Source: Vicinamibacterales bacterium
GTDB taxonomy: Bacteria; Acidobacteriota; Vicinamibacteria; Vicinamibacterales; Fen-181
DNA length: 64,000 nt
Assembly (NCBI GenBank): GCA_036504215.1
Contig: DASXVO010000056.1
Coordinates: 1 to 64,000 of the forward strand
Reading direction: 5' to 3'
Shown here: piece by piece, positions 5,248 through 10,381 of the stretch
How the letters are laid out: each line of letters begins with the position of its first letter
Position numbering within the stretch: the stretch's first letter is position 1
Program-made: the position numbers and the translations under genes
Notes under the pieces: model-generated
What the model was told of the DNA's origin: nothing
Database searches by the model: none
The model's input: the letters and a program-made list of their open reading frames with translations, nothing else

Positions 5248-8200
5248 CTATGTATTGAAGTACCTCGCCTCCGGATGGTGCACGACCAGCGTGGCGGTGG
5301 ACTGTTCCGGGATGAGTTGCCCGGCCGAGGTCAGTATCATGCCCAGTTCCCGTTCGGCGGGAAGGAGGAGGAACACCTTCCGGTGCTCCTCGACGTCCGG
5401 CAGGGCGCCGAAGCCCCACGCGAAGCGCACGCCGCGGTGGCCAGCCAGTCCCAGTTCCTGGCGAATCCGGTCGCACAGCAACTCGGTGGCGGCTTCGGCC
5501 GTCCGCACGGCGAGGCCGTGCGAGAAGTACGCCTCGCTGTATGCGTCCTGGGCGTCCATCGAGTCGAAGCGCTCGGTCGCGGCCGCGCCGACGGTCACCA
5601 CCTGCAGCGCCGCCACATCCATCTTCTCGGAGCCGAGCGGCAGGAAGAAGTCGGCGAGGCACAGGTGCTCCTCTTCCCTCTGCCGGGGGAACGACAGGCG
5701 GGTCATCACCTGCGAGTGGTCGTCCGGATGGAAGACGACGAGTTCGTTGCCGTCGGACTGCGCGGGGAAGTAGCCGTAGACCGCCTGCGGCACGAGCCAG
5801 CGCTGCTCGATCGCCTCGCGCTTCATGCGCTCGAGCCTGGCTGAGAAATCCTTCTGCAACTGCTTCCATCCTGCGCCGCGCTGGGTCGATCCGCCCCACG
5901 ACACGCGGAACAGCCGGCTCTCGTTCAGCCGCTCGAACACCTCCTCGATCGGCATGGTCTGCATCGTCCGCGAGCCCCAGAACGGCGTCTGCGGGACATC
6001 CTCCGGTCGAGCGACGATCGAAGATCGACCCGCGATGACCGCCGCCTTCGCGGCGGGCTTCCGGCGCTCGTCGGCGGCCGTCCGCTCGCGGGCGAGCACC
6101 GCGTCGCGCGTGGTCGGGTCCATCAGCCGATCGACCGTCTCGAGCCCTTCGAACGCATCGCGGCAGTAGAAGACGCCGCCGCCGTACGTCCGATCGCCAT
6201 CCACCGCCGTGATGTCGCGGCCGAAGTCGCGGTTGATTGCCGCGCCGCCGACCATCACCGGCACCGACAGGCCTCGTCGGTCGAGCTCGCGCACGACGAG
6301 CGGCATCTGGCGCGACGTCGAGACCAGCAGCGCGGACAGGCCGATGACATCCGCCTGCAGTTCGGCTGCGCGATCGACGATCGTGCTCACCGGCACCTGC
6401 TTGCCCAGGTCGTGCACGCTGTAGCCGTTGTTGGCGAGGATCGTCTTGATCAGGTTCTTGCCGATGTCGTGGACGTCGCCGTAGACCGTCGCCAGCACGA
6501 TGCGGCCCTTCGTGACGCCTTCGGCCTTCTCGAGGTACTTCTCGAGGTGGGATACGGCCTTCTTCATCGTCTCGGCCGACTGCAGCACGAACGGCAGGAT
6601 CAGTTCGCCCGACCCGAACTTGTCGCCCACCTCTCTCATCGCGGGCAGAAGCACCTGGTTCAGCGTGCGCACGGCCACGGCGGAGGTGTCCGGATTGGGA
6701 TAGGTGTAGCCCGGTTGCGCAAAGAGGTTTGCAATGCCCGTCGCTTCGCGGACGCCGGTCGCGAGGATCGCGTCGATGTCCACCTCGCAGCCCTCGGGTT
6801 GCCGATGCAGGATGCGCCAGTGCAGGCGTTCGCTCGGCGACTTGCCGGCCAACGGGTCCGCCGCCGTCTGCCGCGACTTCGCGCCCTCGTAGAAGCTGAT
6901 GAACCGCGCCGTGGCATCGGAACGCCGGTTGAACAGGAGATCCTCGGCCAATTCGCGCTGCGCCGTTGGAATCTCCGGATACGGTGTCACCTGCTTCGGG
7001 TTGACGATGGCCATGTCGAGGCCGGCTTCGACGGCATGATAGAGGAACACGCTGTTGAGGACCCAGCGCGCCGCCGGCTTGAACCCGTAGGACACGTTCG
7101 ATACGCCGAGCGACGTGAACACGCCCGGCAGCTCGGCCTTGATGCGCCGAAGGCCTTCGAGCGTTTCCACGGCGGTATTTGCGCTCTCCGGATCGCCGGT
7201 CGCGAGCGTGAACGTGAGCGCGTCGAAGATGAGCGCGTCGGGCAGGAGACCGTATTCGCGGGTCGCGATGTCGTACAGCCTTCGCGCGACCTCGACCTTT
7301 CGGTCCGCCGTCCGCGCCATGCCCCGCTCGTCGATCGTCAGGGCGATCGTGGCGGCGCCGTAGTCGCGGACGAGCGGGAGCATCGCGTCGAGGCGCTGCC
7401 GGCCATTCTCCATGTTCACGGCGTTGACGATGATGCGGCCGGGCGCCGCTTCGAGCGCGACCTCGAGCACTTCCGCCTCGGTGGTGTCGATGACGAGGGG
7501 CGCCTCGACGGTCTGGCTCAGCTTCTTGACGACCTGCGACATCAGGTACGTCTCGTCGCGTCGTTCGGTCATCGCAACGCAGATGTCCAGCGTGTGGGCG
7601 CCACCGTCGATCTGCTCGCGCCCGAGCATGGCGATGCCGTCGTAGTCCTCGGCGAGCAGCAGTTCCTTCATCTTCTTGCTGCCCTGCGCGTTCAGGCGCT
7701 CGCCGATGAGCATCGGTCGCGGATTCTGGATCAGGCTGGCGGCGGTGATGCCCGACGACACGAGCGGCAGCGGCAGGGTCGTTCGGGGCCTCGCCTTCCG
7801 GCGGCTCAGACGGCCCACCAGCGCGCGGATGTGCTCGGGCGTGGTTCCGCAGCAGCCTCCGACGACGTTGAGGCCGAAGCGCTCGACGAAATCGGTGAGG
7901 TCGTGCGCGAACTCCTCTGGCTGCAGCGGATAGACGGCCCGGCCGTCCACGTTCAGCGGCAGGCCTGCGTTCGGCAGGCACGAGAGCGGACGCGACGAGT
8001 GGTCACCGAGGTAGGCGAGCGGCGCGCGCATGTGCTCCGGACCGGTGGAGCAGTTGATGCCGATGACGTCGATCGGCATCCGCTCGAGCGTGGCCAGCAC
8101 CGCCGCGATGTCGGTGCCGAGCAGCATGCGGCCGTTCGTGTCGAGCGTCACCTGCACCTGCAGCGGGATCTTGCGGCCCGTGCGGGCGAAGGCGTCCTGC

Positions 8201-10263
8201 ACGCCCATGACGGCGGCCTTCACCTCGAGGATGTCTTGCGACGTCTCGATGAGCAGGAGGTCGCAGTCGCCGTCCATCAGCGACCCGGCCTGCTGCGCGA
8301 AGACCTCGGCGAGCTCCTGGAACGAGATGCGCGAGAGCTCCGGGTCGGACGAGGACGGGAGCTTGCCCGTCGGCCCGAGGACCCCGCAGACGAAGCGTCG
8401 GTGTCCCTCCACGGAGTAGCGGTCGGCCACACGCCGCGCGAGCGCCGCGGCGGCGCGATTGATCTCCGGTGCCTGATCCTCGAGGCCGTACTCGGCCATC
8501 GTCAGACGGTTCGAGCGGAACGTGCAGGTCTCGATCACGTCGCAGCCGGCCTCGAGATACGACGCATGGACCGATTCGATTGCCTCTGGCTTCCTCAGCA
8601 CGAGGTAGTCGTTGCAGCCGACATAGCGCTCGCCGCCGAAGTCGGCGGCCGACAGGTTCTGCCGCTGAAGCTCCGTGCCCATGGCGCCGTCGAACACGGC
8701 GACTCGCTCCGCGAGCGCGTCGAGATAGCCCCGGTCCGTGTAATCGGCCGGCGGGCGCATGGCGGCGTCGGCCCTGCTGCCGCTGCGCGTGCGGATGGTG
8801 AGGGCCTGCTGGCCGACCTCCGCTGCGGCCGCGGGCAACTGCTTGATGCCCGCCTCGCGCACCAGGCGTGGGACGATCAATTCCCAGCCGACCGCCATGA
8901 TGTGGACGCCGCGGACACCCTTCAACGTCCTGACGCGCTCGATGATCTCGAGGGCGATCTGCACGCCTTCTTCCTGTGGGTCGGACGATCGTTCGAGGCG
9001 CGTGACCATCGCCGCCGGAATCTTGATGCCGGGCACCTGCATCATCATCTTCGCGGCGCGCGCGCTACGCACCGGCGTGATGCCGACGAGGAATGGCGTC
9101 CTGTCGAGGACGCCGGCCCTGTCGAGGCCCTCGAGGTAGCGCTCGAAGGCCTCGATGTCGTAGACCAGATTGCTCTGGAAGAACTGCGCACCCGCGTGCG
9201 CCTTCTTCAGCTCGCGCTGCGCCTGGGCGCGCGGCGTCGAAGCGGAGGGCGAGGCGGCGGCGCCGAGGAACAGGCGCGGCGGATTCGCGATGGCGCGGCC
9301 GTCGAGGTACTGCTTCGTGTCGCGCATGCGGCGCAGCATCCAGAGCATCTGGATCGAGTCCAGATCCCAGATGTCCATGCGGCCGTGCGGCGCCGGGCCC
9401 TGCTTCGGGTGATCGCCGGTCAGGCAGAGGATGTTGCGAATGCCGAGCGCGGCCGCGCCGAGGACCTCGGCCTGGATCGCCATCCGAGAGCGATCGCGCG
9501 CCGCCATCTGCATCACCGGCTCGACGCCCTGCTGGATCGACAGCGCCGAGCAGGCGAGCGACGACATGCGGGGGGTGGCCGACGGGTTGTCGGTGAAGTT
9601 GGCCGCGTCGATGTAGTCGCGCAGGATGGCGAGCGTGCGCGCGAGTTCGTCGGGCGCGACCGACAGCGGCGGCGCGACCTCTGAGGTCACGACGAACTGC
9701 CCGGCTGCGAGCTTCTCTTCGAGGGAGGAGACGGGCTGGTGGGGCAGCGCCGGGTGCGGCTCGCCGTCGCCCTGCCACCAGTACGGCTGGCGGATCTCGC
9801 GGAACAGGCCGTCCCAGAACTCCTTGCGCGCATCGCCGCCCGCGACGAGGTTCTTGGCGGCCTCGACGTAACCCCGGTCGCGGACCTTGCCGAGGACCTC
9901 GAGCCACGTCTCGCGGCCCACGCGCGACCAGTCGAGCGGCGGCAGGACCTCGAGGAGCCTGTCCTCGCGGCCCATCCTCTCGGCGCGTTCGTAGATGCGG
10001 TGCCAGATGCAGGGCCGGGTCGAATCCACGTAGCAGCACTCGGGCGTCGAGCCGCCGCACGGGCCGTTACGAAGCCCCTTCGGGCATTCCATCGGGCAGA
10101 TGAACGCCGTCTCCTGGAGCAGACAGTTGCCGCACATCCGACACCCGAACAGGAGGCCCTTCACCTCACGCTCGAAGAACGTGAAGCACCGTTCGGCGAA
10201 CGGCGCCCGGGTGAATCCGAAGTACGCGGGCTGAAAACGGTGACCTGGCGTGAATCCCGGCAT
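5248..10263 (-). CDS. metH: MetV-MetF-MetH fusion: methylene-THF reductase plus B12-dependent methionine synthase
   Basis: The 1671-residue product should reduce methylene-THF to methyl-THF and pass the methyl group through cobalamin to homocysteine in one chain. Residues about 20-90 are a cysteine-rich domain like MetV/MTHFR_C (C41, C44, C47, C56, C60, C69, C76, C77, C85), suggesting a metal or Fe-S site. Residues about 180-475 are the MTHFR barrel (TSEVAPP, NFTDNPSAT, LCLTGDHP). Residues about 515-820 are the homocysteine methyltransferase barrel with zinc ligands C738, C804 and C805. Residues about 850-1110 are the pterin-binding barrel (IGERLNAQGSK). The B12 cap lies at about 1195-1250. 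The B12 domain at about 1252-1385 has the DxHxxG motif at 1263-1268. The activation domain is at about 1425-1671 (RGVRFAWGFGALPD). The frame opens at 10359, but the ATG at 10263 has a GGAGG site about ten bases upstream and starts at the conserved part. Confidence 0.9.
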   Translation of the reverse strand: MPGFTPGHRFQPAYFGFTRAPFAERCFTFFEREVKGLLFGCRMCGNCLLQETAFICPMECPKGLRNGPCGGSTPECCYVDSTRPCIWHRIYERAERMGREDRLLEVLPPLDWSRVGRETWLEVLGKVRDRGYVEAAKNLVAGGDARKEFWDGLFREIRQPYWWQGDGEPHPALPHQPVSSLEEKLAAGQFVVTSEVAPPLSVAPDELARTLAILRDYIDAANFTDNPSATPRMSSLACSALSIQQGVEPVMQMAARDRSRMAIQAEVLGAAALGIRNILCLTGDHPKQGPAPHGRMDIWDLDSIQMLWMLRRMRDTKQYLDGRAIANPPRLFLGAAASPSASTPRAQAQRELKKAHAGAQFFQSNLVYDIEAFERYLEGLDRAGVLDRTPFLVGITPVRSARAAKMMMQVPGIKIPAAMVTRLERSSDPQEEGVQIALEIIERVRTLKGVRGVHIMAVGWELIVPRLVREAGIKQLPAAAAEVGQQALTIRTRSGSRADAAMRPPADYTDRGYLDALAERVAVFDGAMGTELQRQNLSAADFGGERYVGCNDYLVLRKPEAIESVHASYLEAGCDVIETCTFRSNRLTMAEYGLEDQAPEINRAAAALARRVADRYSVEGHRRFVCGVLGPTGKLPSSSDPELSRISFQELAEVFAQQAGSLMDGDCDLLLIETSQDILEVKAAVMGVQDAFARTGRKIPLQVQVTLDTNGRMLLGTDIAAVLATLERMPIDVIGINCSTGPEHMRAPLAYLGDHSSRPLSCLPNAGLPLNVDGRAVYPLQPEEFAHDLTDFVERFGLNVVGGCCGTTPEHIRALVGRLSRRKARPRTTLPLPLVSSGITAASLIQNPRPMLIGERLNAQGSKKMKELLLAEDYDGIAMLGREQIDGGAHTLDICVAMTERRDETYLMSQVVKKLSQTVEAPLVIDTTEAEVLEVALEAAPGRIIVNAVNMENGRQRLDAMLPLVRDYGAATIALTIDERGMARTADRKVEVARRLYDIATREYGLLPDALIFDALTFTLATGDPESANTAVETLEGLRRIKAELPGVFTSLGVSNVSYGFKPAARWVLNSVFLYHAVEAGLDMAIVNPKQVTPYPEIPTAQRELAEDLLFNRRSDATARFISFYEGAKSRQTAADPLAGKSPSERLHWRILHRQPEGCEVDIDAILATGVREATGIANLFAQPGYTYPNPDTSAVAVRTLNQVLLPAMREVGDKFGSGELILPFVLQSAETMKKAVSHLEKYLEKAEGVTKGRIVLATVYGDVHDIGKNLIKTILANNGYSVHDLGKQVPVSTIVDRAAELQADVIGLSALLVSTSRQMPLVVRELDRRGLSVPVMVGGAAINRDFGRDITAVDGDRTYGGGVFYCRDAFEGLETVDRLMDPTTRDAVLARERTAADERRKPAAKAAVIAGRSSIVARPEDVPQTPFWGSRTMQTMPIEEVFERLNESRLFRVSWGGSTQRGAGWKQLQKDFSARLERMKREAIEQRWLVPQAVYGYFPAQSDGNELVVFHPDDHSQVMTRLSFPRQREEEHLCLADFFLPLGSEKMDVAALQVVTVGAAATERFDSMDAQDAYSEAYFSHGLAVRTAEAATELLCDRIRQELGLAGHRGVRFAWGFGALPDVEEHRKVFLLLPAERELGMILTSAGQLIPEQSTATLVVHHPEARYFNT

Positions 10264-10381
10264 CTGTCCTGACCCTCCAAGGGGGAAATCGAGAAATGTT
10301 ACATCAGACGGCCAGGTGGCGGAGGTTCTGCGTCTGAAGGCGCCGGATCGGCGATTCACTGTTAATCAACCGTAGTACTAC
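10264..10381 (-). promoter_or_regulatory. Leader of the methionine synthase fusion with inverted repeats
   Basis: The leader contains a 7-bp inverted repeat, TCAGACG (10304-10310) and CGTCTGA (10331-10337), about 40 bases before the start codon. A perfect 10-bp palindrome GTAGTACTAC lies at 10372-10381. Either could be an operator or part of a structured leader controlling methionine synthesis. I looked for cobalamin and SAM riboswitch cores and did not recognise one. Confidence 0.3.

Follow-up and report, generated by a model that had tools for sequence, protein, structure and literature searches.

MetVF-type methylene-THF reductases (MTHFR) are known from acetogens, where the C. ljungdahlii enzyme represents the 2S type, besides which 3S, 6S and X types are distinguished (PMC8515935). 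They consist of separate MetV and MetF subunits, occur mainly in anaerobes and, in acetogens, are encoded beside Wood-Ljungdahl genes. In the purified C. ljungdahlii enzyme, MetV holds two [4Fe-4S] clusters and MetF holds FMN; reduced ferredoxin serves as electron source, whereas NAD(P)H is not used (PMC8515935, PMC8760232). YitJ-type proteins (NF006396 / PRK08645) place a homocysteine methyltransferase (HMT) domain before an MTHFR domain in one chain. Thermus-type B12-dependent methionine synthases (MetH; PDB 8ssc, 8g3h; TIGR02082) are known without an attached reductase.

A reading frame that joins MetV, MTHFR and MetH

In the window, the whole 64,000-nucleotide stretch of Vicinamibacterales (Acidobacteriota) DNA that was analysed, one minus-strand frame of 1671 codons and a stop carries a MetVF-type reductase followed by MetH (Table 1). 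The first-pass annotation had proposed such a frame, with a MetV-like domain, MTHFR and every domain of a complete B12-dependent synthase. This is borne out by a profile search, in which seven Pfam domains each exceed their own cut-off, and by the end-to-end alignment of residues 545-1702 with Thermus-type MetH (PDB 8ssc). The alignment is complete even though the match to the activation domain begins only at profile position 45. In two homologues (loci L009 and L010), a low-complexity Gly/Ala/Pro expansion precedes this domain.

The mechanical frame reaches back to a GTG at 10359 (1703 aa). The ATG at 10263 is the likely start, and 1671 aa thus the best length, because the alignments with the homologues begin at that Met, which in every one of them is preceded by a purine-rich, Shine-Dalgarno-like stretch. 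Pfam residue positions are counted from the GTG, the catalytic residue numbers below from the ATG. No riboswitch was found in the window or upstream of the gene, and no operon is seen around it within the window, where its neighbours encode a MacB/FtsX permease and DUF4097 and DUF6051 proteins.

Table 1. Features of the fusion gene in the window (aa positions of domains counted from GTG 10359)
Feature	Position	Strand	Residues	Remarks
Fusion gene MetV-MTHFR-MetH	5248..10263	minus	1671 aa	ATG 10263 to stop ending at 5248; likely start
Shine-Dalgarno GGAGGG	10278-10273	minus		9 nt upstream of ATG 10263; from sequence
MetV-type Cys-rich domain, PF12225	9925..10197	minus	55-145	97 bits; NGPCGG motif and 8 Cys without variation
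Methylene-THF reductase domain, PF02219	8860..9720	minus	214-500	Pfam; invariant active-site Glu/Asp/Gln
Reductase/synthase junction	8698..8859	minus	~60 residues	Variable Ala/Arg/Pro-rich linker
Homocysteine S-methyltransferase, PF02574 (S-methyl_trans)	7816..8697	minus	555-848	Pfam; INC...GGCC zinc cysteines
Methyl-THF binding domain, PF00809 (Pterin_bind)	7000..7704	minus	886-1120	Pfam; most conserved part
B12 cap domain, PF02607 (B12-binding_2)	6541..6675	minus	1229-1273	Partial profile match
B12-binding domain, PF02310	6235..6507	minus	1285-1375	Pfam; DxHxxG and SALLVST motifs
Reactivation (AdoMet) domain, PF02965 (Met_synt_B12)	5254..5832	minus	1510-1702	Profile positions 45-256

By sequence criteria the fusion is a MetH. 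It scores 1049 on the NCBIfam metH equivalog model TIGR02082 (cut-off 1010.85) and has the HMT, pterin, B12 and activation domains, the zinc cysteines and the DxHxxG motif. With the acetogen MetVF enzymes it shares PF12225 with the NGPCGG motif and the order MetV before MetF. Its MetV and MTHFR domains are those of this type, but they are not separate subunits: they lie in a single chain, with MetH attached, and no corrinoid FeS protein was detected in the hosts. The YitJ-type proteins likewise join MTHFR and homocysteine methyltransferase, but in the opposite order and without MetV or B12 domains, and the fusion stays below the cut-off of their model (419.9 against 453). The order is indeed reversed, as had been noted earlier, with respect to the YitJ-type protein of the host itself, in which S-methyl_trans (13-285) is followed by MTHFR (323-580). 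No earlier description of the fusion was found in the open-access literature; most subscription journals and the UniProt/InterPro architectures lay outside this search. Taken singly, both halves belong to known families.

The residues expected to matter for catalysis are conserved. The eight MetV cysteines are invariant in six fusions and 12 Chloroflexota relatives, as is the NGPCGG motif, and Glu195, Asp284 and Gln363 of the MTHFR domain are kept in at least 17 of these 18 proteins. The zinc-site GGCC, the B12-site DVHDIG and SALLVST and the activation-domain YGYFP motifs are present in each of the five full-length fusions. Among solved structures, there was no match to the MetV domain. Eight cysteines would suffice for two [4Fe-4S] clusters, which we infer for the fusion. 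The invariant cysteines and the conserved MTHFR residues agree with a putative delivery of electrons through the Cys-rich domain.

Continuity, distribution and origin of the fusion

The window genome is split into 90 contigs, which could point to a sequencing or binning error that joined metVF and metH genes. Judged by sequence comparison, this reading is already refuted by independent homologues, and its chances are practically nil. The first-pass annotation had asked for a check of continuity. The same single frame runs uninterrupted through four independently assembled genomes (L009, L010, L011 and G143), at 71-78% identity to the window protein, and the domain order is repeated in L009, L011 and L115. 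Moreover, metVF and metH lie apart in Chloroflexota, for example on contigs C13 and C8 of G599 and on C45 and C33 of G582. L009 and L010 come from genomes of the same genus (the same contigs as in G430 and G428), G143 belongs to another family within the order, and L011 (G518) is from a Candidatus Eisenbacteria MAG and therefore from another phylum. In a further genome (G442/G519), residues 32-832 reach the end of one contig and residues 833-1703 begin another. In L009, the fusion gene is flanked by short repeats with an 'SSDPSxSVPT'-like translation, and in L010 such repeats overrun the C-terminus of the fusion.

In comparisons with the other fusions, the window protein shows an overall pN/pS of about 0.3, with the lowest values (0.08-0.15) in the pterin domain and the highest in the linkers. 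By this measure the fusion is under purifying selection. The linker at the junction is poorly conserved (41-58% identity) and therefore gives no indication of a fixed channel from one half to the other. An in-frame start codon at the junction that is common to all homologues and has a clear ribosome site was not found, and separate translation of the MetH half is thus not indicated either.

The hosts are a few soil and water bacteria of the Acidobacteriota and a distant relative. The fusion is present in 5 of 162 genomes of the order, with a patchy distribution even within one genus, and in 1 of 47 genomes sampled in the Eisenbacteria group. No others were found in Acidobacteriota outside the order (396 genomes of the phylum sampled), in 350 Chloroflexota genomes (0/350) or in 195 Myxococcota genomes (0/195). 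The closest separate counterparts of both halves are from Chloroflexota, with identities of 50-61% for MetV-MetF and up to 62-63% for MetH. In trees of both halves the fusion is monophyletic, and its MetH half is nested inside Chloroflexota. The simplest reading is a single fusion event, followed by transfer between phyla, with the caveat that the Eisenbacteria case is one MAG and possibly misbinned.

The Chloroflexota counterparts of the reductase half (L091-L103) are single-chain MetV-MetF proteins with the same eight cysteines as the N-terminal half of the fusion, but they are only about 480-547 aa long and are never joined to MetH. They occur in 13 of the 350 Chloroflexota genomes, 12 of which also have a MetH matching the fusion, at a separate place. 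Several copies adjoin corrinoid-protein, RACo and AcsE-like pterin methyltransferase genes, and the reductase half therefore resembles a module from the methyl branch of anaerobic one-carbon metabolism. In a 2017 paper, metV was described as restricted to marine members among Chloroflexi (PMC5736913). Three Chloroflexota genomes (G532, G582 and G607) contain two single-chain MetVF copies each; one of the G532 copies belongs to a cluster of corrinoid-protein genes, the other is located elsewhere. In L102 (G870), MetV and MetF are two frames one stop codon apart, an arrangement intermediate between separate and single-chain proteins.

Predicted reactions and electron supply

The fusion probably carries out the last two steps of methionine methyl supply on one chain and derives from Chloroflexota-type metVF and metH. 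Electrons from a low-potential donor, such as reduced ferredoxin, flavodoxin or an NADH/NADPH complex, would enter at the MetV clusters and move on to the MTHFR flavin, where methylene-THF would be reduced to methyl-THF. The Thermus-like MetH half would then move the methyl group from methyl-THF to cobalamin and on to homocysteine in the same chain. According to this scenario, the two genes were joined a single time, and horizontal transfer would then have spread the fusion. What the sequences show is the architecture and how it is conserved, the single origin, the Chloroflexota kinship and the catalytic motifs. Conserved motifs and selection make both enzyme activities likely. The FeS clusters, the flavin, the electron donor, the history of transfer and any channelling of methyl-THF are what we infer for the fusion beyond these activities.

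For its reactivation, MetH depends on AdoMet and on a one-electron donor of low potential. The MetVF part might serve mainly as a built-in reductase that reactivates the cob(II)alamin of the MetH half, and the reduction of methylene-THF would then be of secondary importance or lost. Such a role would fit the covalent attachment of the MetV FeS domain to MetH and the presence of another MTHFR in the window genome. We regard it as unlikely, since the MTHFR residues are conserved, the domain is under strong purifying selection, and the searches of G143 turned up no MTHFR match besides the fusion. A self-sufficient synthase, in which one set of MetV clusters feeds both the flavin that makes methyl-THF and the reactivation of cob(II)alamin, and in which methyl-THF is handed over on the chain, appears similarly improbable.

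MetVF may also run in the oxidising direction in demethylating anaerobes. The fusion could accordingly oxidise methyl-THF made from methyl donors, in line with the Chloroflexota MetVF genes that adjoin pterin methyltransferase, RACo and corrinoid-protein genes. However, the partner in the fusion is a homocysteine-dependent synthase, which is unfavourable to the reverse reaction, and the hosts yielded only weak matches to the corrinoid FeS protein of the Wood-Ljungdahl pathway, mostly to the pterin domain of the fusion itself. The reverse direction is therefore very unlikely.

Within the preferred reading of a two-step methyl-supply enzyme, both activities may be present without channelling, and the fusion may merely set a 1:1 expression of the two halves. 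This would be a special case of the preferred reading and not an alternative to its core, and we give it somewhat less than an even chance. The variability of the linker speaks for it, as does the retention of separate MetH and, mostly, YitJ-type genes in the fusion-bearing genomes. On the other hand, the joined state persists across families and in another phylum, and no re-splitting is seen in six genomes.

Host genomes and related gene arrangements

Whether the genome has separate metF and metH genes had been raised as a question by the first-pass annotation. It has a complete MetH on another contig (C16), a 610-aa YitJ-type HMT-MTHFR protein on C2 and a lone HMT frame of 311 aa on C81, and the fusion is thus an extra copy. 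Separate MetH genes are likewise present in G516, G517, G518 and G519. In view of the other MetH and the YitJ-type enzyme, the fusion looks dispensable in its host, which counts against the preferred reading. Our guess is that a ferredoxin-type isozyme is kept beside NADH-type enzymes, and that the pair reflects different oxygen conditions.

G143 differs in that the fusion is its sole MTHFR match in a heuristic whole-genome search; direct reading of 1.80 Mb of its 3.3 Mb revealed no second MTHFR. This suggests that the fusion may supply methyl-THF in G143. In the same genome (L115 13084-19000), NuoE-like, NuoF-GltD (NuoF fused with a GltD-like domain, 1042 aa), NuoG-N-like and glutamate-synthase-like genes follow 640 bp after the fusion. 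The gene set resembles a bifurcating complex of the Stn type in which the fused parts are ordered differently. In Sporomusa, metVF is followed by the electron-bifurcating stn genes (PMC7483475), and the 'X type' reductases have NuoEFG beside metFV (PMC8515935). The neighbourhood in G143 recalls both arrangements, but it is only suggestive of an electron supply: it is found in one genome, and this, together with the gap after the fusion, counts against the preferred reading. A specific link between the fusion and NuoF-GltD was rejected, because related proteins occur in genomes both with and without the fusion.

Which physiological donor supplies the MetVF-type reductases of acetogens with electrons is still a matter of dispute. 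Here, a MetVF-type module is placed outside the Wood-Ljungdahl pathway and tied to methionine synthesis, and could for this reason be studied by complementation in E. coli. Channelling of methyl-THF from MTHFR to MetH could be tested on this naturally joined pair. The fusion also suggests that an anaerobic one-carbon module was recruited into amino-acid synthesis via gene transfer.

Long frames in Acidobacteriota family f34 were considered as further MTHFR-MetH fusions and rejected, since the three loci read have separate YitJ and MetH frames. In L036, L033 and L040 of this family, metH is preceded on its own strand by a YitJ-type HMT-MTHFR gene, and in L036 the two share a frame with one stop codon between them. 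This adjacency links the two steps independently of the fusion. Two further long frames, in G928 and G881, match a YitJ-like MTHFR. In the Chloroflexi genome G520 (L013 7344-10931 / L118 6142-9660), one frame places a DUF3800 domain at the MetH N-terminus; since the contig stops within metH, the joint frame may be an accidental overlap.
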